This document shows positions 45,412-64,000 of a stretch of DNA of 64,000 nt, piece by piece. Under the pieces are notes generated by a model. It saw nothing but the letters and a program-made list of their open reading frames with translations. It did no database searches and was not told the origin of the DNA. The stretch is from a virus. Numbering within the stretch: position 1 is the first letter of the stretch; every line of letters begins with the position of its first letter. Where the stretch lies: the IMG/VR virus record IMGVR_UViG_3300027741_000021, positions 1 through 64,000 of that record; one strand, written 5' to 3'. A program made the position numbers and the translations under genes.

Positions 45412-45413
45412 GG

Positions 45414-45419: not shown

Positions 45420-45423
45420 AATC

Positions 45424-45570
45424 ATGCAGCAAAATCAGCAGATCACTCCACAGACACCCCAACCCACACCAGTAGCTCGCCCAGACGAGCGTGGCGCTAT
45501 TGCAGTTTCAGGATCGTTAAAGATCTCTGACCCTGTGACCAAACAAGTATTTGTGGAGACACGAGCATGA
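45424..45570 (+). CDS. Small protein paralogous to the N-terminus of the next gene
   Basis: A 48-residue ORF too short for most callers. It has a Gln/Pro/Thr-rich start and then GAIAVSGSLKISDPVTKQVFVETRA. This resembles VRIQGFVKIFDPKSGEVFVDKKNA at the start of the next protein, so the two share a short beta motif. Its stop codon overlaps the next ATG (ATGA), so the pair is translationally coupled. It is probably a small virion or baseplate component; function unknown. Confidence 0.65.
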   Translation: MQQNQQITPQTPQPTPVARPDERGAIAVSGSLKISDPVTKQVFVETRA

Positions 45571-46178: not shown

Positions 46179-46200
46179 ATATGTGTAGATTAACAGGTAA

Positions 46201-46206
46201 TAAATA
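46201..46206 (+). promoter_or_regulatory. Late promoter box before the tail-fibre genes
   Basis: GGTAATAAATACC lies 24 nt before the ATG at 46231, with a CGGAG ribosome site between. A second TAAATA (46176-46181) overlaps the end of the preceding gene. Confidence 0.5.
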
Positions 46207-46230
46207 CCTATAAGATTCGGAGCAAGCAAT

Positions 46231-47646: not shown

Positions 47647-47658
47647 TAGGAAACTGAC

Positions 47659-48642
47659 ATGACATATTCAGCAGGCGGATTAATCCAGGCAGCAGACTAT
47701 AATACCTTTGCTACAAATCTTAACGCAATTTGGAGTACAGGAACAACTGACAGCGGATGGGGACAAACTGCAATTTCATCCGTCAGCGCCGGCGGGGTCG
47801 TAACTGCTACCAACTGGGCAACACTGGTCAATAATCTCGCTACATCGGGTGCTCAAACTAACACTACGATAACAGCAAGAACAGCACCAGTCACAGGTGA
47901 TGTTGTTGCCATTTTAACTAATGTAGCTACAGATATCACTAACTGTACTACCAATCGTGGTAATGCAGCTAGTTCGGGTGCTGAAGTTGGATATGCCAGT
48001 GGCACCACAAGTAAAACCACTGCCACTGGTTCTGGGCAAGCGGCCTGGACTATTACATTTACACATACCATAACATTCCCTAGTGCTGGTCAAGCTAGAT
48101 ATTTTTGGAATGCCGGCGGTCGTGTGCGATTACAATATGGCAAATCCAGTACAGGTACCGACATTGACCCTGATTGGAATACTTTTGCAGGACTTTGTGG
48201 ATCAATTTATATAACAGGAAGAGTTAACAGCGCAGCACAGACCATTGCCGGCGTCAGCTACACTGGAACCACACGTATTGGTGGCACAGGCGGAACACAA
48301 ACCACTTTGGCCACAACCACTGGGTGGTATCAACTGACCACCTCACCTGCAACCATATTTCAACTAAACAATGCCACATCTCCTTATACCGGTGAATTTA
48401 TTCGGACACAAGCCACAGCTACTTCAAGTACAGTACTGACCTTGACCACCGTTTGGAATCAACCGGCTGTGGCCGCAGCTGGAACAACAGCTAACATCTC
48501 AGGCGGAACAGCACCTGCACTTGGTGCCACTACAATCACAGGAACAGCACCAACCACATTGTGTACCTTTTTTCCACCATCAACTGCACAGGGATTGGCC
48601 AACACCTGGGGAACACCTAGTATTGCTGCTTCAGTGGTATAA
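47659..48642 (+). CDS. Virion structural / tail-fibre-associated protein
   Basis: The 327-residue protein starts with a compact motif, YSAGGLIQAADYNTFATNLNAIW...GWGQ, followed by VTATNWATLVNNL. This defines a family found, often in several copies, among tail genes of marine T4-like phages. The rest is Thr/Ala/Gly-rich beta sequence (SIYITGRVNSAAQTIAGVSY). It is the last gene before the strong terminator at 48660. A role as a fibre or decoration component is inferred from context. Confidence 0.65.
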   Translation: MTYSAGGLIQAADYNTFATNLNAIWSTGTTDSGWGQTAISSVSAGGVVTATNWATLVNNLATSGAQTNTTITARTAPVTGDVVAILTNVATDITNCTTNRGNAASSGAEVGYASGTTSKTTATGSGQAAWTITFTHTITFPSAGQARYFWNAGGRVRLQYGKSSTGTDIDPDWNTFAGLCGSIYITGRVNSAAQTIAGVSYTGTTRIGGTGGTQTTLATTTGWYQLTTSPATIFQLNNATSPYTGEFIRTQATATSSTVLTLTTVWNQPAVAAAGTTANISGGTAPALGATTITGTAPTTLCTFFPPSTAQGLANTWGTPSIAASVV

Positions 48643-48659
48643 TAGGCTAAACACCACAA

Positions 48660-48688
48660 GGGCAAAAGGTAGACTTTTGCCCTTTTTT
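48660..48688 (+). terminator. Strong intrinsic terminator ending the tail operon
   Basis: A perfect 9-bp stem GGGCAAAAG/CTTTTGCCC with a 5-nt loop is followed by seven T residues. It separates the structural operon from the modification operon. Confidence 0.92.
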
Positions 48689-48704: not shown

Positions 48705-49010
48705 ATGAATACTGACAACTTACTTGCTCATGCGCGAGCCCGGTTCGACCATGCGGCTGCACGTCGTGTGTTAAAAGAAAAATATGAAGCTAAAATGCTA
48801 TTTGCACATGCTGGCGGTATGTGGCGTGCAGGTCCTGAACTGATTGCACTATTACATGCTTGCCCCGAAGAACAAGTGGTATTGCTAGATCTTTATGAAA
48901 CTCCGGTCAAAGTAAACATTACGGATTTACAGTTGTTGGCACACAGCCATTGGCAAGAGCAAATGAATGCTTGGTTGGTAGAGCATGAAGAATTAAACAA
49001 AAAACGATGA
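48705..49010 (+). CDS. Unknown small protein heading the modification operon
   Basis: The 101-residue protein has a basic helical start (HARARFDHAAARRVLKEKYEAKM), then FAHAGGMWRAGPELIALLHA and an acidic end. No catalytic motif is visible. I recall similar proteins in T4-like marine phages without known function. It has no Shine-Dalgarno and starts 7 nt after a TATAAT element. It overlaps the next gene by 4 nt. A regulator or adaptor for the operon is possible but unsupported. Confidence 0.65.
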   Translation: MNTDNLLAHARARFDHAAARRVLKEKYEAKMLFAHAGGMWRAGPELIALLHACPEEQVVLLDLYETPVKVNITDLQLLAHSHWQEQMNAWLVEHEELNKKR

Positions 49011-49810
49011 CCACTGGCGCTGTAATCTTTGCATTCAACAACGAACTCACTGACTATGTAGGTATGGCGTCATGGAGTGCTGATCGTATTCGTCGTCATC
49101 TTGGTATTCCGGTAGCAGTAATAACTGACTGTTTAGATCAATCTAAGCTACACAAGTTTGACCAAGTGATACATGCAGATCCCGTCAGCGGTGGCACAAG
49201 ATATTTTGATGATTACAAAGAAACCATCACATGGTACAATGCTGGACGAACAGATGCATACAGTCTGACTCCTTGGGATCAAACTCTAGTGCTGGATGCT
49301 GACTATGTTGTTTGTAGCAATGAATTAAAAAATGTGCTTGATATGTCGCAAGACTTTGCGTGTCATCGCCTGGCCTGGGATGTTGCAGCCATCAATCAAT
49401 TTGAAGGATTAAACTATTTTGGGCAGAATAAATTTCCCATGTGGTGGGCCACAGTAATGATGTTTCGCAAAGGTAATATTGCACAATACATCTTTGATTG
49501 TATGAACATGGTCAAACAAAACTGGATACACTATCGAGATTTATACCACATACAAGGCTCTAATTATCGTAATGATTATGCACTCAGCATTGCATTAGGC
49601 ATAGTAAGTGGACACACATTAAAAGTACACAGCATACCCTGGAGTTTAGCCAGTGTGTTGCCCGAGCATGAACTCTTACAAATTGGTGTAGATCATTTTG
49701 AAATCAAATATCAAGATCAAGGTCAATCAAAAAAGATGGAGTGGCATGGCATGGACTTTCATGCCATGGGGAAAAAATATCTAGGAGATATCATTGCCAA
49801 TCCAGTCTGA
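49007..49810 (+). CDS. Glycosyltransferase-like protein (GT-A type)
   Basis: The 267-residue protein has a GT-A-like layout: an N-terminal nucleotide-binding strand and helix (GAVIFAFNNELTDYVGMASWSA), a second strand (PVAVITDCLD), and a DxD-type motif in LVLDADYVV (D97, D99) that would bind the metal and sugar nucleotide. The C-terminal half is Trp- and His-rich (PMWWATVMMF, HGMDFHAMGKKYL). It overlaps its neighbours on both sides, so it is translated with them. The acceptor is unknown. Confidence 0.65.
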   Translation: MTTGAVIFAFNNELTDYVGMASWSADRIRRHLGIPVAVITDCLDQSKLHKFDQVIHADPVSGGTRYFDDYKETITWYNAGRTDAYSLTPWDQTLVLDADYVVCSNELKNVLDMSQDFACHRLAWDVAAINQFEGLNYFGQNKFPMWWATVMMFRKGNIAQYIFDCMNMVKQNWIHYRDLYHIQGSNYRNDYALSIALGIVSGHTLKVHSIPWSLASVLPEHELLQIGVDHFEIKYQDQGQSKKMEWHGMDFHAMGKKYLGDIIANPV

Positions 49811-50567
49811 ACGCGGGTATATTATTGTTGCACAAAACTCTGACACAATAGACTATGTTGCTTGTGCCAATCAGTTGGCTCGATCTATTAGGCATTTCCA
49901 CCCTGATGCTGAAATTTGTTTATTAACCAATACTGAAGAACACGATTCTGATCTATTCAACTACCATAAAACTTTTGCATTTCCGCCAAGTGACAATCCT
50001 TATGCCAGTGATTGGCAAGTGTTTGGTGCAAGCCCGTTTAGACAAACTATCAAACTAGAAGCAGACATGGTCATTGCCAGTGCTATAGATCATTGGTGGA
50101 CTATGTTTGAACATCGAGATGTAGTAATATCCACTGGCGCCAGAGACTTTTATGATCAACCAGCCGACAGCAGATTTTACAGAAAAGTATTTGATACCAA
50201 CAACTTGCCAGACGTTTATAATGCTATAACATACTGGAGGGTGAGTGAAACGGCACAAGAGTTTTTTCGATTGGTTCAAAAGATTTTTGAACATTGGACC
50301 AACTACAAAACTCTGTTAAAATTTCCTGACGAAGTTGCTTCAACTGACTTGGTATATGCTATGGCAGCACAGATCATGGGTGCCGATCGTGTGACCATGC
50401 CCTTTGCAACATATCCACGCATGGTACATATGAAACGCTATGTGATTCCAACTCAAACACACAATTGGACAAAAGAATTAGTATGGGAATTGAATCCGTT
50501 GAGAATCAACACTGTAGCACAATGGGGTGCAGTGCATTATCATGTGAAGGATTGGCAACATGACTGA
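49794..50567 (+). CDS. Glycosyltransferase-like protein (GT-A type)
   Basis: A TTG start at 49794 is supported by an AGGAG site 8 nt upstream; the gene overlaps the previous one by 17 nt. The 257-residue protein has the same architecture as its neighbour: YIIVAQNSDTIDYVACANQLARS at the start, ICLLTNTEEHD, then KLEADMVIAS (E89-A-D91) in the place of the DxD motif. The sequence looks paralogous to the gene at 49007. The Glu-for-Asp change in the first position is seen in some GT-A enzymes. Confidence 0.6.
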   Translation: MPIQSERGYIIVAQNSDTIDYVACANQLARSIRHFHPDAEICLLTNTEEHDSDLFNYHKTFAFPPSDNPYASDWQVFGASPFRQTIKLEADMVIASAIDHWWTMFEHRDVVISTGARDFYDQPADSRFYRKVFDTNNLPDVYNAITYWRVSETAQEFFRLVQKIFEHWTNYKTLLKFPDEVASTDLVYAMAAQIMGADRVTMPFATYPRMVHMKRYVIPTQTHNWTKELVWELNPLRINTVAQWGAVHYHVKDWQHD

Positions 50568-50904
50568 AGAAGAATTCTTGGAATTTTGGAAAATCTTTCA
50601 GTGGCCTGAACCTAAATCAGTATATTATAGACTCTACTACAATGATGTTGGCGAGCCATTGTTTTATAGCCATGAAGATTTACCCGGTAAACATATTGAT
50701 ATCACTCCTGAGCAGTTTGTACTACAAGACCAATCAGTCAAGATTATTGACGGAAAGTTAGTACGCCAGCAACAAACCAGAATAACTAAACTTGTACCCA
50801 GAAACTCTGGTGTACTTTGCCATTCGAATGATGTGACTATTGTAGTCGATCAACAACCAGGCCGATATTGGAAGAAAAAAGAAAATGTCGTTGACACAAA
50901 TTGA
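50560..50904 (+). CDS. Unknown small protein in the modification operon
   Basis: The 114-residue protein starts with an acidic helix (MTEEEFLEFWKIFQWPEPKSVYYRLYY) and has a beta-rich middle (GEPLFYSHEDLPGKHIDITPEQF), ending in a basic tail (GRYWKKKEN). No family is recognised. It overlaps both neighbours, by 8 and 20 nt, so it belongs to the coupled series. Its small size and place next to several radical SAM genes make it one possible substrate or adaptor, but nothing in the sequence shows this. Confidence 0.6.
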   Translation: MTEEEFLEFWKIFQWPEPKSVYYRLYYNDVGEPLFYSHEDLPGKHIDITPEQFVLQDQSVKIIDGKLVRQQQTRITKLVPRNSGVLCHSNDVTIVVDQQPGRYWKKKENVVDTN

Positions 50905-51817
50905 TATTGCAGACTTAGATTGCGTGTATCTAAGTTATGATGAACCACAAAAGGAAGAACACTGGGTTAAAATTAAGAATATGGTTCCTTGGGCCACTCG
51001 AGTAGACGGAGTCAAAGGTAGTGATGCTGCCCATAAAGCAGCAGCTGATGTCAGCACTACTGAACGTTTTATCTTGATTGATGGAGATAACCTTCCTGAT
51101 CCAAAGTTCTTTAATCAAACATTATCATTTCCCACCAAAGATCATGAACATGCTGTATTTAGATGGAGAGCACGTAACCACGTGAATGGACTCATGTATG
51201 GTAATGGTGGGTTGAGTTCATGGACTAGGACTTATGTGCAAGACATGCACACGCATGAAAATACCGACGGCCGCACAGAAACACAGGTTGAGTTTTGTTT
51301 TGATCCGTTGTACTGGTCTATGCATGACTGCTACTCAACCACATACCCCAATGGATCGGCATTCCATGCTTGGCGTGCAGGATTTAGAGAAGGTGTAAAG
51401 ATGTGTTTGGATCGAGGTCGCAGACCCACTGTGACTGAGTTTCAAGTTCGGGTTCATCAACGCAATCTTGACCATCTCACTATTTGGCACAATGTAGGAG
51501 CAGATACAGACTATGGATATTGGGCTATAGCTGGCGCCCGACAAGGCACATATATGACCATGCTGACAGCATGGGATTACTTACAGGTACAAAATTTTGA
51601 TGCATTAGCAGAACTATGGAATACTGTAAAAGATGAACAACCTGAACATGTGAGTAACAATGTTGCCAACGAATTGCACACACAATTGGATCTGCCCATG
51701 CACCTGCTCACTGTAGAAGCCAGTGCATTTTTCAAACATCACTATCGTAGTAACTGGCACAATCGTGGCGTTATGGTAAGAGAAATAGATGTAATACGTC
51801 AGCAAGAAGGTTGGTAA
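50885..51817 (+). CDS. Glycosyltransferase-like protein with DGDN motif
   Basis: The 310-residue protein has an N-terminal strand (DCVYLSYDEPQKEEHW), the block ATRVDGVKGSDAAHKAAAD and RFILIDGDNLPDPKFF, where D66-G-D68-N resembles the DxD metal site of GT-A transferases. Conserved aromatic and His residues follow (FRWRARNHVNGLMYGNGG). This domain is frequent in marine phages as a predicted glycosyltransferase. It overlaps the previous gene by 20 nt and the next by one base (TAATG). Confidence 0.6.
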   Translation: MSLTQIDIADLDCVYLSYDEPQKEEHWVKIKNMVPWATRVDGVKGSDAAHKAAADVSTTERFILIDGDNLPDPKFFNQTLSFPTKDHEHAVFRWRARNHVNGLMYGNGGLSSWTRTYVQDMHTHENTDGRTETQVEFCFDPLYWSMHDCYSTTYPNGSAFHAWRAGFREGVKMCLDRGRRPTVTEFQVRVHQRNLDHLTIWHNVGADTDYGYWAIAGARQGTYMTMLTAWDYLQVQNFDALAELWNTVKDEQPEHVSNNVANELHTQLDLPMHLLTVEASAFFKHHYRSNWHNRGVMVREIDVIRQQEGW

Positions 51818-52779
51818 TGTTTGTTATAAGTGGAGTTGATGATAAATTTTGGAATCAATTTGAGTTTATTGAATATCTGGTTGCTAATCAGCACAAAGTC
51901 ATTGAACTAAGCATAGTGTCAGAAGCCATTGATTTAGAAAATCTTGGTGTATACAAATTGCTGGATTTGTTTGATTTTGAGCAAGTGATTATCAAAACTT
52001 GGAATCCATTGGAAAAACATAGTCAATACAAAATTAACTTTCAAGGACCTACATTTTGTTTCAATAAAAATAATTACAATGGTTTAAAATATGTAGTTGA
52101 TATTGATCCTAAATTACACTGCTGGAATCAAGAAAAGATTTTTATGTGTTTATATGGTCGACCCAATGCTGGAAGATTAGCGTTGGCCAGCGTGCTCAAT
52201 GAAAAATATCCTAACCAAAGCACAATTCATTTTTCATGCAACACGAGTGACAATTCACTGATACAATTTGAATTTGATAAATTGCTATCTTATGATATAC
52301 ATACTATGGAATTTGCGGCAAAATTATTAAAATACCTTCCAATATTACAATCCAGCAAAGATCGTTATACACAGTTCAATGGATATGATTATAATGATCC
52401 ATTGACTAAATTATACAAAAACATATTTGTAGATATAGTAGGAGAAACACATGTAATGGGAAGAACATTTTTCCCAACTGACAAAACTACCCGACCCATG
52501 TTATTAAAAAAACCTTTTATAATATTTGCATCTCGGAATCATCTAACGTATCTAAGACAAATGGGATTTCAAACATTTCATGACTTTTGGGATGAGGATT
52601 ATGATGGATACGAAACCAGAGATAGATTATTAAAAATCTATCAAATTATCGATGATTTAGCAACCAGACCAATAGATAAACTAGTTGCTATGTATCAAAA
52701 AATGCAACCCATACTAGATCACAATTATAATTTGTTAATAAACCAAACATACAGTACAACCGTAACGGAGGTAATCTGA
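51817..52779 (+). CDS. Glycosyltransferase-family protein, paralogue 1
   Basis: The 320-residue protein ends in a shared domain: TTRPMLLKKPFIIFASRNHLTYLRQMGFQTFHDFW in parts, followed by DEDYDGYETRDRLLKIYQIIDDL. The same block occurs in the genes at 54130 and 62896, where it reads EKIYKPI...LRxxGFKTYHTLIDES. This is like the nucleotide-sugar-binding half of exostosin/GT-B-like transferases. Here the usual SEK/TEK motif is changed (TDKTTRP), so activity is less certain. The ATG at 51817 overlaps the previous stop codon. The middle has LYGRPNAGRLALASVL, matching the NGRxRxHR block of the paralogues. Confidence 0.55.
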   Translation: MFVISGVDDKFWNQFEFIEYLVANQHKVIELSIVSEAIDLENLGVYKLLDLFDFEQVIIKTWNPLEKHSQYKINFQGPTFCFNKNNYNGLKYVVDIDPKLHCWNQEKIFMCLYGRPNAGRLALASVLNEKYPNQSTIHFSCNTSDNSLIQFEFDKLLSYDIHTMEFAAKLLKYLPILQSSKDRYTQFNGYDYNDPLTKLYKNIFVDIVGETHVMGRTFFPTDKTTRPMLLKKPFIIFASRNHLTYLRQMGFQTFHDFWDEDYDGYETRDRLLKIYQIIDDLATRPIDKLVAMYQKMQPILDHNYNLLINQTYSTTVTEVI

Positions 52780-52811
52780 GTAAAAGCAATTTCTTATCTT
52801 CTGCCGAACAG

Positions 52812-54140
52812 ATGCATGCTGATCTTGGCCCAGCATTATGTTTGGCCAAATGGAAACAGGTCAGCTTACATCTTACCACAGGGTTGAATAATTCATGTTA
52901 TCATCCGCCATTGCACCAGATAGATCCTGATGTAATAGCGATCAATCCTGCGGCATTGCATAATACACAGCATAAAAAAGCACAACGAAAAATAATGCTA
53001 CAACAAGAACGCCCTAGTGAATGTAGTTATTGTTGGAACATGGAAGATCTTGGCAAACTGAGTGATCGTCATTATAGATCAGGCGAGCCTTGGGCAGCAG
53101 TAGATTTTGACAAAATAAAAAAATCAACCGGAGAAGAAGATGTTGTACCATCGTATGTGGAAGTTAATTTCAACAATGCATGCAATCTTAAATGCAGCTA
53201 TTGTAGCCCGCAGTTCAGCTCTAGCTGGCAACAAGAAGTTGAACGCCACGGCGCCTTTCCTACTTTGGTTCCCCATAACGCTCCTGAGCATTTTAGCGGC
53301 CATCGCAGGCCTATCCCTTCTCGTGATCACAACCCTTATGTAGAAGCCTTCTGGGCCTGGTGGCCCGCACTGTATCCGGAACTCAAACACTTTCGTATGA
53401 CCGGTGGTGAACCACTAATGGACAAGAATACCTATCGAGTGTTTGACTATGTGCTGGAACATCCTAAAAATGATCTACATTTGGCAGTAACTTCAAACTT
53501 CAGTGTAGAGCCTGAATTATCACAAAAATACTTTGACTATGTGAAACGACTATGCAATACCAACATTGAACACTTTATGCAATATGTGAGTCTTGACTCA
53601 GGAACTGGACCGCAGGCAGAATATATTCGGCATGGGTTGAATTTTGAAAGATTGCAGAACAACGTAGAAAGATATCTGACAGAAATCCCATATCGCAATA
53701 GTCTTACATTTATTGTGACCATGAACAATCTAAGTGTAACAGGATTTTTGCCGTTGATGCAATGGATACTGACTCTACGTCGAACACACAGTAAAACATA
53801 TCAACGTGTATGGTTTGATACACCAGTTCTAACACAGCCTGCATGGCAAAGCCTACAAACATTGCCAGAAAGCTATGCTTCAAAACTGGAACAGGCCAGA
53901 GACTTTATGTTGGCAAATCTTGAAACTACCGATGATCCATTCCATGGATTCAAAGACTACGAAGTGCAACGCTTAGAACGTGACATAGCCTGGATGAAAT
54001 CAGCACAACCACAACCCACAGCACAAGCAGATTTCTATAGATTTTTTACCGAACACGACCGCCGTAGAGGTACAAACTTTGAGAACACCTTTCCTGAGAT
54101 GTTAACTTGGTGGAAACAATGTAGTTTACATGTTAGGTAA
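52812..54140 (+). CDS. Radical SAM protein 1 (N-terminal twitch/SPASM-like, C-H subtype)
   Basis: The 442-residue protein carries the radical SAM cluster motif CNLKCSYC (C124, C128, C131) and the MTGGEPL SAM-binding motif. Before it lies a cysteine-rich SPASM/twitch-like region: C10, the SCYHPP motif (C29, H31) and CSYCW (C71, C74), which may bind a second iron-sulfur cluster. The frame is open upstream to a GGAGG site at 52767-52771, and a CTG at 52776 overlapping the previous stop (CTGA) would add 12 residues that align with paralogue 2; the ATG at 52812 has no ribosome site. The substrate is unknown; peptide or glycan modification is possible. Confidence 0.85.
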   Translation: MHADLGPALCLAKWKQVSLHLTTGLNNSCYHPPLHQIDPDVIAINPAALHNTQHKKAQRKIMLQQERPSECSYCWNMEDLGKLSDRHYRSGEPWAAVDFDKIKKSTGEEDVVPSYVEVNFNNACNLKCSYCSPQFSSSWQQEVERHGAFPTLVPHNAPEHFSGHRRPIPSRDHNPYVEAFWAWWPALYPELKHFRMTGGEPLMDKNTYRVFDYVLEHPKNDLHLAVTSNFSVEPELSQKYFDYVKRLCNTNIEHFMQYVSLDSGTGPQAEYIRHGLNFERLQNNVERYLTEIPYRNSLTFIVTMNNLSVTGFLPLMQWILTLRRTHSKTYQRVWFDTPVLTQPAWQSLQTLPESYASKLEQARDFMLANLETTDDPFHGFKDYEVQRLERDIAWMKSAQPQPTAQADFYRFFTEHDRRRGTNFENTFPEMLTWWKQCSLHVR

Positions 54141-55245
54141 TCGACCAGTCATCTGCGACACTGCCTGTGAGATTTATCCAGAAATACAGCATCTGGTGGA
54201 TGATACATTTTGGGATTTTGATCAGCACGATCCACAGGCCAATTCAATCACAATCTTTGCCAGACAAACAGTAAATCAGCATTACATAAAGATAAAAGAA
54301 TTGGCCACAACAGGATTCTTTTTACCTGTGTTGGCCAATCCAAGTGAAGGTTCAATTGTACTTAAACTTCAATGTCAACGCCTAGGACTCCTAGAGTTAA
54401 TTACTCAAAAGAAACTACTGTTGATAGGCTGCGGAGAGATGGAACCCGAACTCAATTGCATGGTGTATGATTGCTATCTTAATCGAGTAATAGGCTATGA
54501 ACAAAATATTGAACAGGGTAATCGTATTAATGAAATATACAACAAACCAACCAAACCTTACAAATTTCTATTCTTAAATGGACGTACCCGCCCTCATAGA
54601 AAATACATGATAGAAAAGATGCGTGATGCACATTTATTGGAACATGCACTTTGGACCAATCTAGATACAACTCCTGTATATCATCACACGTACCAAACTG
54701 ATCTCTTAAGCAGACCATCCGAGATACAGCTATTGCCAGTTGAATATGAAGTAGAACAATATCTCAACGGTCTTAAAGACCAATATCAACAATCGTTTAT
54801 CAAGCACGAACTGTTCAACAACCAATGGGGAGATGTATATATTCGTGCCGAACCGTACATTGATACCTATTTTAGTTTGATAACTGAAACTGTATTTGAT
54901 TATCCTTACAGTTTACGCAGCGAAAAGATTTATAAACCTATTGCCATGGGTCATCCGTTTGTGGTTGTGGCCAATCGTGAATTCTATAGAGATTTACGTA
55001 ACATGGGATTCAAAACTTATCATACACTAATAGACGAATCATTTGATCAAATAGACAACAATCAAGATCGATTAGATCGAATATCACAAGTGGTTGAAGA
55101 TCTGTGTTCAAGCGATCTGAATCAATTCCTGGTTGCAGCCCAGTCAATAAGTAAGTATAATCAACAACATATGGCTGATATAGGCCCAAAAATACATGAT
55201 GAATTCCCGTACCGTTTCTCCAACTTTATTCAAAATAACCTGTGA
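54130..55245 (+). CDS. Glycosyltransferase-family protein, paralogue 2
   Basis: The 371-residue protein has a middle block FLFLNGRTRPHRKYMIEKM (residues about 145-163) and a C-terminal block SEKIYKPIAMGHPFVVVANR followed by LRNMGFKTYHTLIDESFD. These resemble exostosin/fucosyltransferase-like GT-B domains in which the Glu-Lys pair contacts the nucleotide sugar. It lies between two C-H subtype radical SAM genes and overlaps both, repeating the order transferase-radical SAM seen just upstream. The acceptor is unknown. Confidence 0.6.
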   Translation: MLGNRPVICDTACEIYPEIQHLVDDTFWDFDQHDPQANSITIFARQTVNQHYIKIKELATTGFFLPVLANPSEGSIVLKLQCQRLGLLELITQKKLLLIGCGEMEPELNCMVYDCYLNRVIGYEQNIEQGNRINEIYNKPTKPYKFLFLNGRTRPHRKYMIEKMRDAHLLEHALWTNLDTTPVYHHTYQTDLLSRPSEIQLLPVEYEVEQYLNGLKDQYQQSFIKHELFNNQWGDVYIRAEPYIDTYFSLITETVFDYPYSLRSEKIYKPIAMGHPFVVVANREFYRDLRNMGFKTYHTLIDESFDQIDNNQDRLDRISQVVEDLCSSDLNQFLVAAQSISKYNQQHMADIGPKIHDEFPYRFSNFIQNNL

Positions 55246-56588
55246 ACGATTTAGATTTTAAACGCACTGTACTAGACAATCTAAGTGCAAGTTTTTGTGC
55301 AGCAAAATGGTACAATGCGACCATTTGGTTAGGGAGTGGCATGACTACCAGTTGCCATCATCCTCCGGCTCATTTAGTGGATATTTCTATGTTATCTGCT
55401 AACCCTAAGCTGCTGCACAATACTGATCAGAAGAAAGCGGATCGACGCAAGATGCTGGCAGGTGACCGTCCTGCAGGTTGCGAATACTGCTGGAAGATTG
55501 AGGACATGGGCAGCGATGCCATCAGCGACCGTGTGTACAAGAGTAAAATTTATCCCATCAAGGCTCTAGATGAAGCATATACCAATCCACCTGATCAGGA
55601 CGTCAACCTCCGTACCTTGGAGATTGCTTTTGACCGCACTTGTCAATTTGCTTGCAGCTATTGTAATCCTGCTTTCAGCAGCACATGGGTACGAGACATT
55701 CATAAAAATGGACCTTACAAAGGCCTTGTGTCTGATGGTCGCAATCACTTTACTCATGAGCATACAAGTAGTCAACTGTATCGGTTTGGCGAAACAAATC
55801 CTTATGTGGAGGCGTTCTTTGCCTGGTGGGAAACGGATCTTCACAAAACTCTTCAGGAACTAAGAATTACCGGCGGCGAACCACTGATGTCTGGTGAGAC
55901 TTGGAAACTGATTGATTGGTTCAAGAACAATCCTGGACGTAGCCAAACACGATTAGCTATCAATTCAAATTTGGGCACAGCAGTAGATTTGGATCGATTG
56001 CTTGCTAGCATCACAGGACTAGAAGTTGATCTTTACACTTCCAACGAAAGTGTAGGCTTACAAGCTGAATACATCAGGGATGGTCTAGTATGGGATGACT
56101 GGGCAAACAATGTAGAGCGATTGTTGGACAGCGGACAATTCCGCGGAATACATGTGATGAACACCATCAATGCATTGTGCTTGGATACCCTAGACCAATT
56201 TTTAGAATGCATGCTGCAATGGAAAACTGAATACGGGCGTGATGCGCTGAGCTTTACTCTGAACATACTGAGATTTCCTAGTTTTCAATCACCATTGGTA
56301 TTGCCTGATGATATGCGTATGCAATATGCACACACATTAGAGACATGGCTTGTGGCCAATCAGCACAGTGAATTCTTGCACGAACATGAAATCAATCATC
56401 TACAACGGCTGATAGATTATCTTGACATAGTAAAAACTCCACATTCAGAATCATTTGAAATGCCCAAGTTGCTAAACGATTTCAAACAATTCTACATACA
56501 GTATGACCAACGTCGAGACAAAGACTTTGGTTACACATTTCCTAAATTAAAATCCTGGTATGACTCAATACAAATACAACAGCAGTGA
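55242..56588 (+). CDS. Radical SAM protein 2 (C-H subtype)
   Basis: A GTG start overlaps the previous stop codon (GTGA). The 448-residue protein is clearly paralogous to radical SAM protein 1: N-terminal C19 in FCAAKW, SCHHPP (C38, H39), CEYCW (C80, C83), then the cluster motif CQFACSYC (C134, C138, C141) and ITGGEPLM. The Gln-Phe in the cluster loop is unusual but keeps the CxxxCxxC spacing. The C-terminus ends with a RRDKDFGYTFPKLKSW segment that matches RRGTNFENTFPEMLTW in protein 1. Substrate unknown. Confidence 0.85.
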   Translation: MNDLDFKRTVLDNLSASFCAAKWYNATIWLGSGMTTSCHHPPAHLVDISMLSANPKLLHNTDQKKADRRKMLAGDRPAGCEYCWKIEDMGSDAISDRVYKSKIYPIKALDEAYTNPPDQDVNLRTLEIAFDRTCQFACSYCNPAFSSTWVRDIHKNGPYKGLVSDGRNHFTHEHTSSQLYRFGETNPYVEAFFAWWETDLHKTLQELRITGGEPLMSGETWKLIDWFKNNPGRSQTRLAINSNLGTAVDLDRLLASITGLEVDLYTSNESVGLQAEYIRDGLVWDDWANNVERLLDSGQFRGIHVMNTINALCLDTLDQFLECMLQWKTEYGRDALSFTLNILRFPSFQSPLVLPDDMRMQYAHTLETWLVANQHSEFLHEHEINHLQRLIDYLDIVKTPHSESFEMPKLLNDFKQFYIQYDQRRDKDFGYTFPKLKSWYDSIQIQQQ

Positions 56589-57819
56589 ACTAGTTCACAA
56601 TATTGATCTTACCGATCGTGAACGTTTCTTATTAGAAGATTCAAAAACTTTTTGTATCTATCCTTGGATACATCTGCATGCATATCCTACCGGGGAAGCA
56701 TATCCTTGTTGTCATTCAGAAATGAAATTTCCAGTAGGCAATTGTCGTACTCAAACTCTTGAAGAGATATGGCAAGATCAGCCCATGCAGAAATTAAGAG
56801 CTGACATGTTAAGCGAAACTCCTAATCCAGCATGCGGTCGCTGTTACGAACAAGAACAATCAGGATTTTTCTCTGGCAGAAAAAGTGCAAACAAACATCA
56901 TGGGCATCATGTAAACAAAATAGAAAAAACTCCTTTTGAGATGACTTATTGGGATATACGTTTTAGTAATCTTTGCAATCTTAAATGCCGCAGTTGCGGG
57001 CATATTTTTTCAAGTCAATGGTATCAAGATCAGGCCAAATTAGCCGGCGGCGACTGGAAGGACCGCAACAAAGTATTAAACTATGCCGGCCGAACAGAAA
57101 CTGATATGTGGGAACAGTTGTTACCGCACATGGATTATGTTGAGCAAATATACTTTGCTGGTGGCGAACCATTGTTGATGGAAGAGCACTATCGTATTTT
57201 GGACGAACTGGTGCGTAGAGAAAGATTTGATGTTAGACTGATTTACAATACAAATTTCACACATACAGATCTCAAAGGTCAAAGTGTGTTTGAATACTGG
57301 AAACTGTTTGACAATGTATCAGTGGGCGCCAGCTTGGATGGGTCAGGCCGGTATGCTGAATACATACGAAAAGGTAGCCGTTGGGATCAAATTGAAAAGA
57401 ACCGTCTTGAAATGTTAGACATATGCCCTGCGGTAGATTTTTATATCAGCCCTACACTGAGCATTATGAATGCATGGCATCTGCCTGATTTTCATCGAGA
57501 CTTGGTCAGTCGTGGATTAATAAAACCTCAGGATCTCAATGTAAATATATTGCAAGATCCTCCATTCTATAGAATTGATATTGCACCAATGAAATACAAA
57601 CAACAGTTACGCATGAAGTATCAGGAGCATATTGAATGGTTGCGTCCTCGGGATCCATTGCAACGTGCCACAGTGGGATTTGAATCAGCCGTTAACTTTA
57701 TGATGTCCACAGACAATACACATTTGATTGATACGTTCTGGCGCAAGACTCATGAACTGGATGCCATACGCTCAGAACAAATATTAACTGTGATTCCTGA
57801 ATTGCACGCATTAACATGA
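56560..57819 (+). CDS. Radical SAM protein 3 (PCC subtype)
   Basis: The 419-residue protein starts inside the previous gene (29-nt overlap). The N-terminus is a textbook SPASM/twitch-like stretch: FCIYPWIHLHAYPTG (C32), PCC (C50, C51), VGNCRTQTLEEIWQ (C62) and CGRC (C92, C95). The radical SAM motif CNLKCRSC (C139, C143, C146) and FAGGEPLL follow. SPASM elements normally sit after the radical SAM domain; here they precede it. Such proteins are usually annotated as twitch-domain radical SAM proteins in phages, with no known substrate. Confidence 0.87.
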   Translation: MTQYKYNSSELVHNIDLTDRERFLLEDSKTFCIYPWIHLHAYPTGEAYPCCHSEMKFPVGNCRTQTLEEIWQDQPMQKLRADMLSETPNPACGRCYEQEQSGFFSGRKSANKHHGHHVNKIEKTPFEMTYWDIRFSNLCNLKCRSCGHIFSSQWYQDQAKLAGGDWKDRNKVLNYAGRTETDMWEQLLPHMDYVEQIYFAGGEPLLMEEHYRILDELVRRERFDVRLIYNTNFTHTDLKGQSVFEYWKLFDNVSVGASLDGSGRYAEYIRKGSRWDQIEKNRLEMLDICPAVDFYISPTLSIMNAWHLPDFHRDLVSRGLIKPQDLNVNILQDPPFYRIDIAPMKYKQQLRMKYQEHIEWLRPRDPLQRATVGFESAVNFMMSTDNTHLIDTFWRKTHELDAIRSEQILTVIPELHALT

Positions 57820-59027
57820 AAACACCACACGATCAATTCTGTGTGCTGCCTTGGGTCAGCATAGAAGCCAGTCCAATTGGCACAGTTAGGCCTTGTTGTT
57901 TAGCTGATGATGAAATCTTAGATAACAATGGAAATAAATTCACCTTGTCCACAGCTAAGTTTGTTGATATTCAAAACAGCAATCACATGCGTAACCTACG
58001 ATTAGAATTTTTAGATGGCAAAAAACCTACCACTTGCCGTCGGTGTTGGAATGAGGAAGAGTCCGGTCGCAAATCAAAACGCATGCATACGCTGGATCGT
58101 CTTAAACATTCTCTTGGAGATGAACCATGGACCAGGGATGCCAAACCCTTGATGTTTCTAGATCTCAAACTGGGAAACATATGCAATCTCAAATGCAGGA
58201 TCTGCGGATCGTGGTCAAGTTCTCAATTTGCAGGCGAAGAAATTTCTTTTTTGCCAAGAGCAGAACAAAAATCCAGTCATGCATACAAGATGCTTCGAGC
58301 CGGAGCCTGGCCCAAAGAAAACACACATTTTTGGGCAGAAATTGATCACATACTAAACGACATACGTTATATTGAGTTCACTGGCGGCGAACCATTCATG
58401 ATTGATCAGCATTTTGATATGCTGCAAGGTATAGTGGATCGTGGTATAGCTGGCCAAGTGGAGATACACTACAATACCAATGGCACCTTGTTTCCTGAGC
58501 GTGGACCAGAAATATGGCAACACTTCAAAACAGTAGAAGTGGCATTCAGCATTGATGATATTGGTGCAAGGTTTGAATATCAACGAAGTAATGCTGTGTG
58601 GCAAACTGTGGTAGAAAACATCAACCGGTTCAGGATCATGCGTGAGCACATGCCCAATTTGCAGTTGCAATGTTGCACCACTGTGAATGTGTTTAATGTG
58701 CGATATCTTGATCAAGTGGCACAATGGATAACTGAACAAGCATTTGATTTTGTATACTGGAACATCATGCATGATGCGTGGTATTTCTCAATCTCACGAT
58801 TGCCCGTAGAAACCAAACAAGAAATTGCCAGTTATCTCAGCATGTGCGATATGCCATCAATATATCAATCAGAAATTGAAAGAATTATCAACTTTATGAC
58901 CAATGGAGAATCCATGGACGGCGTAGAAACATGTCAGCAAATACGCATGCTAGATCAACGTAGACAGCAAGATCTAAATCGTGATCATGGGGAATTGGCA
59001 TACCTACTAAATTATGCAAAAACCTGA
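57816..59027 (+). CDS. Radical SAM protein 4 (PCC subtype)
   Basis: The ATG overlaps the previous stop codon (ATGA). The 403-residue protein has FCVLPWVSIEASPIG (C9), PCC (C27, C28), CRRCW (C74, C77), the radical SAM motif CNLKCRIC (C123, C127, C130) and FTGGEPFM. Sequence after the cluster (GSWSSSQFAGEE) resembles that of protein 3 (GHIFSSQWYQDQ). The barrel half carries a VAFSIDDIG motif in place of the VSLDGxG seen in other members, a possible specificity difference. Substrate unknown. Confidence 0.87.
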   Translation: MKTPHDQFCVLPWVSIEASPIGTVRPCCLADDEILDNNGNKFTLSTAKFVDIQNSNHMRNLRLEFLDGKKPTTCRRCWNEEESGRKSKRMHTLDRLKHSLGDEPWTRDAKPLMFLDLKLGNICNLKCRICGSWSSSQFAGEEISFLPRAEQKSSHAYKMLRAGAWPKENTHFWAEIDHILNDIRYIEFTGGEPFMIDQHFDMLQGIVDRGIAGQVEIHYNTNGTLFPERGPEIWQHFKTVEVAFSIDDIGARFEYQRSNAVWQTVVENINRFRIMREHMPNLQLQCCTTVNVFNVRYLDQVAQWITEQAFDFVYWNIMHDAWYFSISRLPVETKQEIASYLSMCDMPSIYQSEIERIINFMTNGESMDGVETCQQIRMLDQRRQQDLNRDHGELAYLLNYAKT

Positions 59028-60303
59028 TACCTTATGTTTGGCACCGTGGACGCACACGTACCTTTCCCCACAGACTGAAAGGCGTATGTGTTGCGCCAGC
59101 CGAGAACCTGCGCAGAATTTTACACAGTACATAGACACTCAATCTGGAACAGGTACTTACATACCTATCACATTGGCTCAGCATTGGAACAGTGACCACA
59201 TGAAGTCGGTGCGTAGACGTATGATAGCAGGTGAAACACTGTCTGAGTGCGAAGTATGCAACGATCAACTGTTGAATACAGATGTATATCGCACGTATTT
59301 TTGGCATTTATTCCAACATAAATATTCTGAACTGATGTCTAACACACATGATGATGGTTCTTGTGATGTATTACCAGTTAGCTGGGATTATAGATTTAGC
59401 AATTTGTGTAATTTTAAATGTAGAACATGCGGCGATATGTTAAGCAGCGCCTGGGAGTCAGAGCAAAAAACTCACAATATGGTCAACTGGGCAGATTCCA
59501 AAAACAATTGGATGCAGCCCGCAGTACGTGAACAAATTTCCCAATTCCAAGACAGTCAAATTGAACAAGAGTTTTCAGACGCTGTGGAACAGCATCGAGT
59601 TGAAGAAGTATATTGGGTCGGCGGCGAACCATTGATGTATGAACAACATTGGCGCTACATGCAACGCATAATTGAATTGGGAGATGGGAGCAAAGTATAT
59701 GCTAGATATAATACTAACTTGTCCAGAGTTGAGTATCGTGGGATTAATCTCTATCGCGACATTCTTCCTGGGCTTAGGGATTGGCAGATATGTGCAAGTC
59801 TCGACGGCACAGGCCCAATTGGCGAGTACATTAGAACAGGTCTTGACTACAATAAATGGCTTGAGAACTTTCGTGGAGCAGTTGCAATACAACGTCATGC
59901 TCGACAAGTTAGAATTGACTTTACGCTCACTCTGCCCGGAATGTTTGAAGTTGGCCGAATTACAGAACTTGCCAAACAACAGGGAGTAGATATCCTTGCT
60001 AAAGTTATTTTTTCATTCTCTCCAAACATTGTGATGAGTCCATTGGCATTGCCTAGACATATATTGCATCCGTGGTTAGACGAATTGATAAACAATACGT
60101 CGGGTGCCATGCAGGCTGTTCTAATACAGTTAAAGAATCGTCCTACATTTGAAGAACAATGGCCCAATGAATATCAACAAGGATTTACCAAAGGCCGAGC
60201 ACGTATTCTACAACTAGAACAGATAAGAACACAATCAATCACAATGTCCAATATCCTGGCAGCAAGACCTGATGTATTAAAATGGTGGATGAATAATGCT
60301 TAA
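59014..60303 (+). CDS. Radical SAM protein 5 (MCC subtype)
   Basis: The 429-residue protein overlaps the previous gene by 14 nt. It has LCLAPWTHTYLSPQT (C8), MCC (C26, C27), CEVC (C79, C82), the radical SAM motif CNFKCRTC (C132, C136, C139) and WVGGEPLM, with a central ASLDGTGPIGEYIRTG. It is the most divergent of the five in the N-terminal region, with an insertion after the CC pair. It directly precedes an unknown 346-residue protein. Substrate unknown. Confidence 0.87.
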   Translation: MQKPDTLCLAPWTHTYLSPQTERRMCCASREPAQNFTQYIDTQSGTGTYIPITLAQHWNSDHMKSVRRRMIAGETLSECEVCNDQLLNTDVYRTYFWHLFQHKYSELMSNTHDDGSCDVLPVSWDYRFSNLCNFKCRTCGDMLSSAWESEQKTHNMVNWADSKNNWMQPAVREQISQFQDSQIEQEFSDAVEQHRVEEVYWVGGEPLMYEQHWRYMQRIIELGDGSKVYARYNTNLSRVEYRGINLYRDILPGLRDWQICASLDGTGPIGEYIRTGLDYNKWLENFRGAVAIQRHARQVRIDFTLTLPGMFEVGRITELAKQQGVDILAKVIFSFSPNIVMSPLALPRHILHPWLDELINNTSGAMQAVLIQLKNRPTFEEQWPNEYQQGFTKGRARILQLEQIRTQSITMSNILAARPDVLKWWMNNA

Positions 60304-61336
60304 CAACTCAATTGAAATGGATCTGCGCGGTGTGCATGATCAGTTGCTTACAGTTTATATCGATGTGTACGATAACAGTCTTGCACGTAAATGGATGACC
60401 GCACTTAATCAGTTGATCTGTGCAGACTATCATTTGGAAAAAAACTACTGTTGGCTAGGGTGGACCGAAAGTGCTCGGACATTGGAATATTTGTGTACCC
60501 AAATCAATCGCAGTATTGATGCTGTCAATGCAGCAGGGCTAGGATACACCATAAACGATTCTTTCAGTCCAACTGACACAATGACCCAGGATAACAGAGT
60601 TAATCATGCACATATGAATCAACTTCACAGATACTTTGAAGATTTGCAAGGAGTATCAGGGGCAATGAGTCCGTATTACACCGCAGCCGACGATCGCACT
60701 AGGTGGCATATAAGACAACTAAACCTACTGTGTCATGAACTTGAAAGTTTGGTATTGAGCATACGTAAATTACTCAGAGCACCAGAATGGCGCCGCCCAT
60801 CACAGCTAATGTGTTGGTTACAAGCACCTAGATTTGCACTTGATGTTGAAGACTACAATTTGTTTGGAATTGATTCAATAAATCGTCAGCTGGGTGGAAT
60901 ATATGTAGGAGTAAATAAAGCAGTTGGCAAGCACCATTGGGAAGTGTTCAACGATGAAGGGAGAGATAGTCGTGTGTCTGAATTAGTTACAACTACATTG
61001 CGATCACAAACTGAAGCAGCAGGAGACTTTGATATTGAATGGGCAAATGATCCTGGATCGTTTCCTTGGCAGATTCAAACTCTTAACGAATTTAGAACCT
61101 GGTTAATAAAGAATGGGTTTGATCCAGAGGACAAATCATTGACCATTGGCCATCCTAAGGTGGCTCAAGTGGATCTATTGCGAACATTTGGTACCACAGA
61201 CTATCGGGTGATATGGGCACAGTTAGCACAATACTTAGATGTATATAAAATACGCACTTGTGATGGTGAAGCTACATACAAGTATCGCTGGAGTGATACA
61301 GACTATGAACAACAACAAATAAGGAAATTAAAATGA
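60296..61336 (+). CDS. Unknown protein following the radical SAM array
   Basis: The 346-residue protein is alpha-helical and aromatic, with no signal peptide or membrane segment. Notable features are a VNHAHMNQLHRYFEDLQG block (about 101-118), whose His residues could bind metal, and IRQLNLLCHELESLVLSIRKLL. I do not recognise the family. It overlaps radical SAM protein 5 by 8 nt and the next small gene by 4 nt, so it is part of the same pathway unit. It could be a redox partner, substrate carrier or further enzyme. Confidence 0.6.
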   Translation: MLNNSIEMDLRGVHDQLLTVYIDVYDNSLARKWMTALNQLICADYHLEKNYCWLGWTESARTLEYLCTQINRSIDAVNAAGLGYTINDSFSPTDTMTQDNRVNHAHMNQLHRYFEDLQGVSGAMSPYYTAADDRTRWHIRQLNLLCHELESLVLSIRKLLRAPEWRRPSQLMCWLQAPRFALDVEDYNLFGIDSINRQLGGIYVGVNKAVGKHHWEVFNDEGRDSRVSELVTTTLRSQTEAAGDFDIEWANDPGSFPWQIQTLNEFRTWLIKNGFDPEDKSLTIGHPKVAQVDLLRTFGTTDYRVIWAQLAQYLDVYKIRTCDGEATYKYRWSDTDYEQQQIRKLK

Positions 61337-61434
61337 ACTGGATTCGACGACTTTGGGCAAAAATTACTCTAGAAATTCGCTATCGTAAAAAGTTAAAAGA
61401 ACTACGCAAGCGTGATCCTTTCATCTACAAATGA
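61333..61434 (+). CDS. 33-residue basic protein before the carbamoyltransferase
   Basis: An ORF of 33 codons joins its neighbours by ATGA overlaps on both sides (61333-61336 and 61431-61434), with an AAGGA site upstream. The product is strongly basic and helical (MNWIRRLWAKITLEIRYRKK) and ends KRDPFIYK. Precise double coupling argues that it is expressed. Function unknown; a small adaptor, membrane-surface peptide or enzyme substrate are all possible. Confidence 0.7.
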   Translation: MNWIRRLWAKITLEIRYRKKLKELRKRDPFIYK

Positions 61435-62912
61435 ATTACATAGGAATATCTGCTGGGTTCCATGATGCTGCTATCAGCGTGGTCAACAACTCTGGCAATA
61501 TTTTATTTGCAGCACACAGCGAACGCTACAGCAAAAACAAGCACGACAAGGATATATGTTCAGAGTTATTGGCTGATGCATTAGCTTATGTAGAGTCAGA
61601 CTGGATTGAATACCATTATTACGAACGTCCCTGGGTCAAAGCCTTTAGACAACTGCGTAGTGGCGAGGGATTCCAATGGCCTAGCTGGGATCGATTATTA
61701 GGCAATACATATAATCACATGGGCAGGCCTCGTGTGCATACACATGGTCATCATCTGTGTCATGCAGCAGCAGGATTTCAAACCAGCTCATTCAATGATG
61801 CCACAGTGGTTGTGATTGATGCCATTGGTGAGTTCGACACTGTGACCATATGGGATGCCGTGTACAATGATCACACCGGCCGGGCTGAATATAACAAGTT
61901 GTGGGGTCAGAAGTATCCACACAGTATCGGATTATTTTATTCTGCAATGACTCAACGTGTGGGTCTACGTCCATTGGATGAAGAATATATTCTCATGGGC
62001 ATGGCTGCATATGGGAAACCACGGTATCTTAGAGAGATGCAACAGCAATTGTTAAATTCAAAAGACAATTCTCAGTTTGTGCAAAATTTGCACATTGGCA
62101 TTGATGATAACTTCTTGCCTGATGCAGATATAATGGACATTGCCTGTAGCGCACAACTCCTGGTAGAGCAATTGATACAAAATATTATCAGTCGTGCCAG
62201 AATGATAGGACACAGTCGTAATCTGGTTTACGGAGGTGGAGTGGCGTTGAACTGTGTGGCCAACAGCACCCTGGGGGCATATTATGAAAACATCTGGATC
62301 ATGCCCAATCCTGGCGACGCAGGCAATAGTCTTGGTGCAGCAGCTCTTGGAATGGGCGGTCATCTCGGGTGGGATACTGCTTTTCTTGGGCATGACATTG
62401 CTGGTGAGTATCCTGTTAACAGTATACTTGATGGTCTACTCACTGATCGTATTATTGGTGTTGCATCAGGGCGTGCAGAATTTGGACCAAGAGCATTAGG
62501 CAATAGGAGTCTACTGGCTGATCCACGAGGATGTTCAATCAAGAACAAAGTAAACGAAATCAAACGACGGCAAAAGTTTAGACCATTTGCACCAGTTATT
62601 CTCGAAGAATATGTTGATCAATATTTTGATATGCCTAGACATTGGAGCAACAGCAGATACATGCAAGTGGTAGCCACTTGTAGACATCCAGAATTATTTC
62701 CTGCTATTGTTCATCATGACGGCACTAGTCGTGTACAAACAGTTCCAGCAGATGGGTCAGGAATACGAGCTCTGCTAGAAAAATGGCATTTCATGACTGG
62801 GTGCCCTATGCTATTAAATACCAGTTTGAACATACGTGGTGAACCCATGGTAAATGATCGAACAGATGCTGATAGATTTCAGCAGTTGTATGGCATTACT
62901 GTTTGTAGTTGA
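61431..62912 (+). CDS. Carbamoyltransferase, NodU/TobZ family
   Basis: The 493-residue enzyme should transfer a carbamoyl group from carbamoyl phosphate, through carbamoyl-AMP, to a hydroxyl group. The N-terminal Kae1-like domain has GISAGFHDAAIS, the HHLCHAA motif (H107, H111) and VVVIDAIGE (D130). The YrdC-like C-terminal part has GRAEFGPRALGNRS, KFRPFAPVIL and LNTSLNIRGEPMV. It is somewhat shorter than typical members (about 550-600). It overlaps the 33-residue gene by 4 nt and is the last gene of the operon. Substrates of relatives are sugars or antibiotics; here a glycan or a nucleoside is likely. Confidence 0.9.
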   Translation: MNYIGISAGFHDAAISVVNNSGNILFAAHSERYSKNKHDKDICSELLADALAYVESDWIEYHYYERPWVKAFRQLRSGEGFQWPSWDRLLGNTYNHMGRPRVHTHGHHLCHAAAGFQTSSFNDATVVVIDAIGEFDTVTIWDAVYNDHTGRAEYNKLWGQKYPHSIGLFYSAMTQRVGLRPLDEEYILMGMAAYGKPRYLREMQQQLLNSKDNSQFVQNLHIGIDDNFLPDADIMDIACSAQLLVEQLIQNIISRARMIGHSRNLVYGGGVALNCVANSTLGAYYENIWIMPNPGDAGNSLGAAALGMGGHLGWDTAFLGHDIAGEYPVNSILDGLLTDRIIGVASGRAEFGPRALGNRSLLADPRGCSIKNKVNEIKRRQKFRPFAPVILEEYVDQYFDMPRHWSNSRYMQVVATCRHPELFPAIVHHDGTSRVQTVPADGSGIRALLEKWHFMTGCPMLLNTSLNIRGEPMVNDRTDADRFQQLYGITVCS

Positions 62913-64000
62913 TACGATCCACCACAGCTTGTAATCGATGACCCATGCCGTTAAGGAAAACTTGAGAATTGTGTTGTATCTCAGGTGCAAGATCTTGATA
63001 CAATTGATGTAAATTATCCTGACCAGACTGTATCAATGATTTTGTAAGGTCAAGTACTGATTCAAATCGATCTTGATTGTTGGTAATTGTATCGTAGCTT
63101 TCATCCATAAAACGACCAAAAGTTTTATATCCTAGATCACGCAGGTGGCGGAGATGATCTACAGAACTCACTGCCACAAAGAATTGATTGTTGAATATGG
63201 GTTTGAAAGTTTTTTCCGTAACAAATTGTCCACCAGAGTTGTCAACATCAATCATGGTTTCCAACACAATGTTGAAATAACTGTCGATATACAAGTTGGT
63301 CATATTCAAGTCATAGGTATTATGTGCATGGGTATCTAGATTGTCCACACGGAACGGCCCGGCCGCAATAAATTGATCTATCCTGGGTTGGCATTTGGCT
63401 AGATAACTATTGCTCAAGGCACACCCATGATAGTCGTCTTCGCTGCCCAAAAGATGTTGCGTATAACTAAAATACCCGTGGTGGTGCAGACCATGACTCC
63501 AAAGATCGCTCATGAATGTTTTCCGCCATAGTTTGTCTATCCTGCACAGTCCAGTATAGGCATGTGATCTTGGATTGAGATGATACCTAGCTCCGGCATT
63601 TCTATCCACGGTTCGCCAGTACATGAATTCTAGTTCAGGCCAATATATGGTATTATGATATTGATCAGCAGTGGTATTTCCAGATATCAGCCATACCACG
63701 TTGGGATCAATACCATGCTGATTGCACAACCAGTCCAGTCGATTTCGTATGTGTCCAGGATGGTCGCCTTCGTGATAGGTAAAAATCAATTTGAATTCTT
63801 TTCTTTTGATTCTTTCAAGCCCTTCAACAGAGATCATGTCAATATAATCTTGATCAAAATCAAACCATCCCAATACCATTGGGTACCAGGACCCTACTGG
63901 AGCATCTGTGGTGCGCCCCACTTGTACAGGTATTTTGCAGTCACGTAGATAGTAGATCAGTCGGGGAAAATCCAGTCGTTTTCCATCCAAGAAATCAAGC
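62896..64000 (-). CDS. Glycosyltransferase-family protein, paralogue 3 (5' end off window)
   Basis: The minus-strand frame is open to the window edge, so the N-terminus is probably missing; a TTG at 63990 is the only start inside. The C-terminal block TEKTFKPIFNNQFFVAVSSV and LRDLGYKTFGRFMDESYD is shared with the genes at 51817 and 54130. The middle has a CRIDKLWRKTFMSDLWSHGL block matching NGRTRPHRKYMIEKM. The typical Glu-Lys pair is intact. Its 3' end overlaps the carbamoyltransferase by 17 bp in convergent orientation, so it belongs to a separate transcript from the next region. Confidence 0.6.
   Translation of the reverse strand, partial: LDFLDGKRLDFPRLIYYLRDCKIPVQVGRTTDAPVGSWYPMVLGWFDFDQDYIDMISVEGLERIKRKEFKLIFTYHEGDHPGHIRNRLDWLCNQHGIDPNVVWLISGNTTADQYHNTIYWPELEFMYWRTVDRNAGARYHLNPRSHAYTGLCRIDKLWRKTFMSDLWSHGLHHHGYFSYTQHLLGSEDDYHGCALSNSYLAKCQPRIDQFIAAGPFRVDNLDTHAHNTYDLNMTNLYIDSYFNIVLETMIDVDNSGGQFVTEKTFKPIFNNQFFVAVSSVDHLRHLRDLGYKTFGRFMDESYDTITNNQDRFESVLDLTKSLIQSGQDNLHQLYQDLAPEIQHNSQVFLNGMGHRLQAVVDRINYKQ

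Follow-up and report, generated by a model that had tools for sequence, protein, structure and literature searches.

A conserved gene unit encoding five radical SAM enzymes and a carbamoyltransferase in uncultured T4-like phages: a candidate pathway for sugar decoration

The window analysed here comprises bases 1-64000 of virus record IMGVR_UViG_3300027741_000021 (191,975 bases in total), which derives from an uncultured T4-like myovirus whose genes include those encoding the portal, the major head protein, and the baseplate wedge. At positions 48705-62912, the window carries a tightly coupled unit of fifteen plus-strand genes (~14 kb) encoding five radical S-adenosylmethionine (SAM) enzymes (rS1 to rS5), several transferase-like proteins, a 33-residue peptide, and a carbamoyltransferase. 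The order of these genes is fixed in more than 100 related phage fragments, which suggests that the unit is probably a dedicated pathway for an unusual decoration. The reading we favour, although tentatively, is a phage-encoded pathway for a carbamoylated, radical-edited aminodeoxy-sugar decoration, most likely placed on a tail protein.

Layout and conservation of the unit

The first-pass annotation of this DNA described a single coupled operon with five intact radical SAM proteins and a carbamoyltransferase. The open reading frames (ORFs) indeed occupy 48705-62912, and 13 of the 14 internal junctions overlap, by 4-29 nucleotides (nt), the remaining one, between f322 and rS1, being a 32-nt gap. 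The extent required one amendment, as the module runs past 62912, with the convergent gene j364 and nucleotide-sugar genes beyond the window. Transmembrane segments were found in none of the unit proteins. The genes are listed below in their order.

48705..49010, plus: a101, small conserved protein, function unknown (ORF and conservation)
49007..49810, plus: b267, transferase-like protein with an LDADYVV motif, conserved core (conservation; no Pfam match)
49794..50567, plus: c257, b267 homologue (weak match to phrog_1903, function unknown)
50560..50904, plus: d114, small conserved protein, function unknown (ORF and conservation)
50885..51817, plus: e310, DGDN protein, one of the best conserved in the unit (mean pairwise identity 71%; N-terminal part modelled, weakly, as GT-A-like)
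51811..52779, plus: f322, variable-slot transferase-like protein, family of g371 and j364
52812..54140, plus: rS1, radical SAM enzyme with twitch-type N-terminal cysteines (NF033640, 318.5 bits)
54130..55245, plus: g371, variable-slot transferase-like protein
55242..56588, plus: rS2, radical SAM enzyme (NF033640, 289.3 bits)
56560..57819, plus: rS3, radical SAM enzyme (NF033640, 386.8 bits)
57816..59027, plus: rS4, radical SAM enzyme (NF033640, 323.4 bits)
59014..60303, plus: rS5, radical SAM enzyme (NF033640, 286.5 bits)
60296..61336, plus: h346 (confident model; phage-only structural relatives)
61333..61434, plus: 33-residue peptide with C-terminal KRDPFIYK, carbamoyltransferase partner gene (conservation)
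61431..62912, plus: O-carbamoyltransferase (closest solved match, decarbamoylnovobiocin carbamoyltransferase)
62896..63990, minus: j364, transferase-like protein, convergent with the unit (f322/g371 family)

Relatives were gathered in IMG/VR from two separate seeds, rS3 and e310 (80 kept of at least 550 e310 relatives), giving 160 loci on about 143 contigs, some of them closely related, in which the seed genes are present by construction and the other genes are not. The order of twelve core genes was unbroken across the 160 loci, and rS1 to rS4 were all present in 109 of the 110 loci that include e310 as well as rS5. In the slots after e310, rS1, rS3, and rS4, additional radical SAM genes or variable representatives of the f322/g371/j364 family are found. 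Scattering or decay of the radical SAM genes, named in the first-pass annotation as the outcome that would speak against a multi-step system, was not seen, the relatives keeping all five together, intact, and ordered.

All five enzymes match the N_Twi_rSAM model (NF033640) over nearly its full length, at 286-387 bits against a curated cut-off of 170, and none matches a pyrroloquinoline quinone (PQQ) model. The CxxxCxxC motif, present in each, is intact in all 455 rS sequences compared, and the four N-terminal auxiliary cysteines of each protein are 99-100% conserved among them. For the tree and the identity figures, sequences were picked by similarity thresholds; in that tree the rS sequences fall into five separate monophyletic, orthologous clades with support near 1, which indicates that rS1-rS5 are old, distinct enzymes rather than recent copies. 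Within the same genomes, mean pairwise identity was 61-74% for rS1-rS5 and 71% for e310. Among the tail proteins it was 52% (giant tail protein), 54-61% (two fibre-like proteins), and 78% (203-residue protein); each radical SAM enzyme thus equals or exceeds the neighbouring tail-fibre and giant tail proteins in conservation.

Neither megablast of the unit against GenBank phages nor tblastn of e310, h346, g371, a101, and d114 against 50,697 GenBank phage records gave a match. Eight e310 relatives were found in 84,980 genome records, on contigs resembling phage DNA binned with bacteria. In most of these distant loci, one or two radical SAM genes come after the row a101-b267-c257-x-e310; all nine radical SAM proteins scanned there exceed the N_Twi_rSAM cut-off, and the upstream genes include tail or virion family matches in all four loci scanned. 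These distant marine relatives carry a smaller version of the unit, suggesting an old small core that was expanded into the five-enzyme array. In each of fifteen related large records, ~5 to 17 N_Twi_rSAM genes exceed the cut-off; the 320-kb phage record G026 (record of L087) has about 17. In the cultured Vibrio phage K566, four distant N_Twi-like radical SAM genes form a separate cluster (L016:14965-21701), within a few kb of a PagP gene, and this cluster is possibly a testable model; it was rejected as a relative of the unit, the unit profiles matching only its radical SAM proteins.

Carbamoyltransferase, short peptide, and transferase-like proteins

The last gene of the unit securely encodes an O-carbamoyltransferase of the TobZ/NovN/NodU type, with PF02543 and PF16861 both over cut-off and a match to phrog_1601. 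Its best solved match is decarbamoylnovobiocin carbamoyltransferase, which acts on the noviose deoxysugar of novobiocin, and carbamoylation of a sugar hydroxyl is predicted from this resemblance. In the unit enzyme, the stretch ALGNRSLLADPR resembles ALGNRSILADAR in the novobiocin enzyme but not ALCNTTTLARAD in a carbamoyltransferase acting on DNA. In cyanophage S-CAM1, genes for more distant carbamoyltransferases neighbour those for phosphoheptose isomerase and heptose epimerase.

The product of the short ORF (61333-61434) is MNWIRRLWAKITLEIRYRKKLKELRKRDPFIYK. Between h346 and the carbamoyltransferase gene, the relatives yielded 48 distinct sequences, one of them unrelated, and third codon positions proved two to three times more variable than first and second positions, which indicates that this ORF is a selected protein. 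A DNA scan for K-(R/S/G)-D-P-F-I-Y-K-stop, which detects only peptides with that motif, gave at least 120 stretches, of which 80 were read, many of them in short loci; this carbamoyltransferase stood alongside the peptide in 68 of these 80, mostly starting within some 35 nt, and a radical SAM match in 22. The 33-residue ORF is therefore a real gene that pairs with the carbamoyltransferase in most sampled phages, also where the array is lacking. The first-pass annotation had suggested that one of the small ORFs might be a modified peptide; the 33-residue gene is real and conserved, but it tracks the carbamoyltransferase and not the radical SAM array, which makes its maturation by the array less likely and leaves room for another precursor, since the gene for a precursor of a ribosomally synthesized and post-translationally modified peptide (RiPP) is expected to track its maturase genes. 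The peptide may be a docking partner, carrier, or substrate of the carbamoyltransferase. A role as a membrane anchor was rejected, as the peptide has no transmembrane-like stretch and its amphipathicity lies mostly inside the shuffled range. No DPFIY peptide was present at cultured-phage carbamoyltransferase genes in the eight regions checked; a variant, DPYIYEE, occurs in Marine virus AG-345-D19, and a related short peptide at L166:13532 (minus) ends in KLKELRKQDPFIYPLW, an ending that makes the family wider than the scanned KRDPFIYK form.

The labels initially given to the transferase-like proteins were not borne out by profile searches. Pfam gave no match for the proteins labelled "GT-A-like" (two), "DGDN", and "exostosin-like", and both PDB profile searches and hhalign comparison with the Escherichia coli GT8 pair WaaJ/WaaO were negative. 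The predicted structure of e310 is poor (predicted local distance difference test, pLDDT, 49), and its GT-A-like fold matches are weak and come from that poor model. The h346 protein was modelled at pLDDT 86; it has ten phage-only relatives in BFVD, one of them in Agrobacterium phage Atu_ph07, and no relative in the PDB at E 0.001.

Genes flanking the unit

Three flanking features bear on how the unit is interpreted (G000 denotes positions in the source record).

27767..48642, plus: tail genes preceding the unit (baseplate wedge, 4724-residue virion protein, and 203-, 471-, and 327-residue proteins)
48658..48684, plus: intrinsic terminator at the end of the tail operon (most relatives have a similar hairpin)
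G000 68875-70257 (L009:5875-7257), minus: radical SAM enzyme resembling DesII (E 7e-70 against the 8hzv structure of DesII)

The same tail-gene row directly precedes the unit in 18 of 18 genomes. In most of them the terminator stands between the two, its T-rich tail occupying the expected -35 position of a sigma70-like promoter, whose TATAAT-like -10 element (TATAAT, 48693-48698, in the window) lies just ahead of the first start codon, only a few nt away, so that the unit is probably expressed as its own transcript with almost no leader. The T4 late promoter TATAAATA was absent from both strands of the window, against about 3 occurrences expected by chance.

Downstream of the unit, a StrS-type aminotransferase and a short-chain dehydrogenase/reductase (SDR) were each present in 20 of 21 genomes, and a protein with an e310-like part in all 21. 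In the source record this is an 864-residue protein (G000 65206-67800, plus; L009:2206-4800) that carries PDPxDPPYIYxFG...VPGATExKYV repeats in tandem and resembles e310 at its end; its relatives in the 21 genomes range from 438 to 1456 residues. The DesII-like enzyme, whose gene has two StrS-type aminotransferase genes and an SDR gene on its flanks, scores 348 bits (E 8e-104) against TIGR04426, below the equivalog cut-off of 450 bits, and is therefore named DesII-like only; tblastn against GenBank phages gave no match. It occurs in the source record and three relatives. Among the 21 flanks it is found in three (the source record, G011, and G014), exactly those with a second aminotransferase, a co-occurrence that is only suggestive because the relatives are not independent, and that would fit DesI-DesII-DesV logic by analogy. 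Three other flanks add a gene of one family, a member of which was identified as a GFO/IDH/MocA oxidoreductase. An HldE/RfaE-like nucleotidyltransferase is encoded at G000 72279-72782. Elsewhere in the record are two B12-type radical SAM enzymes, one resembling KedN5-family C-methyltransferases (G000 128653-130578, minus; L012:8653-10578; E 4e-72, below cut-off) and the other at G000 86601-88052, and a TctA-family tricarboxylate transporter subunit (G000 104842-106149, minus; L011:3842-5149; PF01970, E 4e-38), the sole strongly polytopic protein seen outside the window.

Proposed pathway and alternative explanations

In the pathway we favour, the downstream nucleotide-sugar enzymes would supply an aminodeoxy sugar, which the transferase-like proteins (conserved b267, c257, and e310; variable f322/g371/j364) would assemble in the cytoplasm. 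Each of rS1-rS5 would edit the growing product, through reactions such as epimerisation, dehydrogenation, or deoxygenation, and the carbamoyltransferase, possibly aided by the 33-residue peptide, would cap a hydroxyl. The candidate acceptor is a tail protein encoded immediately upstream, such as the Ser/Thr-rich 327-residue protein. A sugar decoration is preferred because of the sugar-nucleotide genes, the deoxysugar-type carbamoyltransferase, and the soluble transferase-like proteins, and we regard a glycan or sugar as the probable product. A phage-made acceptor is preferred because of the constant core, the fixed place behind the tail genes, and the lack of a membrane protein in the unit, and has a parallel in chloroviruses (PMC7019647); that such a product is carried by the virion is put forward more cautiously, as a plausible but tentative proposal. 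The glycan assembly suggested in the first-pass annotation thus gains from the sugar-nucleotide neighbours and the novobiocin-type carbamoyltransferase, while its acceptor is a candidate and its glycosyltransferases are putative.

Several observations weigh against this proposal. No glycosyltransferase profile matched b267, c257, e310, or the f322/g371/j364 family, the nucleotide-sugar genes sit on the opposite strand to the unit, and the unit appears to have its own host-type promoter, apart from that of the tail operon. Radical SAM enzymes of the twitch and SPASM types act mostly on peptide substrates. Phage tail regions also often carry host-surface genes (PMC7029224). The main rival, which we consider rather unlikely, has the same enzymes build or edit a host-surface glycan, e.g., lipopolysaccharide, during infection, resulting in receptor change or exclusion of competing phages. 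The promoter, the HldE/RfaE-like nucleotidyltransferase, and the heptose genes adjoining the S-CAM1 carbamoyltransferases agree with this explanation, and pelagimyophage glycosyltransferases have been interpreted likewise (PMC7029224); however, a flippase, a polymerase, and a membrane-anchored transferase are absent from the unit, and core enzymes 60-75% identical over diverse phages would be odd given variable host surfaces. Direct RiPP-like modification of a protein or peptide (a tail protein or the 33-residue peptide) by the radical SAM enzymes appears less probable still, even though peptide modification relies heavily on SPASM/twitch enzymes (PMC11002830), tail genes adjoin the unit, and a hyperconserved short peptide lies inside it: apart from its association with the carbamoyltransferase, that peptide has an invariant C-terminus, unlike a typical variable core, and neither a protease nor a transporter was identified in the unit.

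Two further explanations are far less probable. DNA hypermodification, in which the carbamoyltransferase and transferases would act on a modified base, is very improbable. A phage carbamoyltransferase of the same superfamily does modify 5-hydroxymethylcytosine (PMC8670742), but the active-site stretch of the unit enzyme differs, and PF00303, the thymidylate-synthase-family partner of such enzymes, was absent from the source and 14 related large records (several of 337-364 kb; the source and several others may be incomplete), all 15 of which have the carbamoyltransferase domain. Least probable of all is a metabolic role in host PQQ or iron-sulfur (Fe-S) metabolism, as proposed for similar T4-like phages from aquatic environments that carry radical SAM genes (PMC7678222, PMC5332604); rS1-rS5 match N_Twi_rSAM and no PQQ model, and their order is locked with the transferase-like genes and the carbamoyltransferase gene.

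Several known systems resemble the unit in part. The phage resembles desosamine-type (DesI/DesII/DesV) and novobiocin-type pathways in its DesII-like enzyme, two StrS-type aminotransferases, and sugar-type carbamoyltransferase, and differs in that its DesII-like protein is below cut-off, occurs in few relatives, and stands beside five further radical SAM enzymes. Chlorovirus capsid glycosylation offers a second comparison, with genes that are not grouped in one operon. There, too, a large virus encodes its own glycan pathway with sugar-nucleotide enzymes, a conserved core, and virus-specific outer sugars, a design that the constant core and variable slots of the unit recall, but the host is eukaryotic and the portion of the report available does not describe radical SAM enzymes or a carbamoyltransferase (PMC7019647). 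The host recognition cluster of T4-like pelagimyophages and cyanophages holds glycosyltransferase and radical SAM cassettes in the same genome region; these are described as hypervariable (PMC7029224), whereas the order of the unit is fixed and its radical SAM genes are highly conserved. An environmental T4-like phage whose genome contains 12 radical SAM genes (PMC5332604) resembles the source phage in carrying many in one genome; its genes were reported as Fe-S proteins, and an operon of orthologous enzymes is not described in the part of that report available.

A bolder and unlikely version has the five radical SAM enzymes act successively on a tail protein or its attached sugar, while the carbamoyltransferase would need the peptide as its carrier or docking partner; if true, this would be a virion chemistry not known from any virus. 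The putative pathway is widespread in uncultured phages and offers testable parts, namely five separable radical SAM enzymes, a viral DesII-like enzyme, and a tiny carbamoyltransferase peptide partner. A conserved multi-enzyme radical pathway at a tail locus would point to a large unexplored virion or host-surface chemistry.

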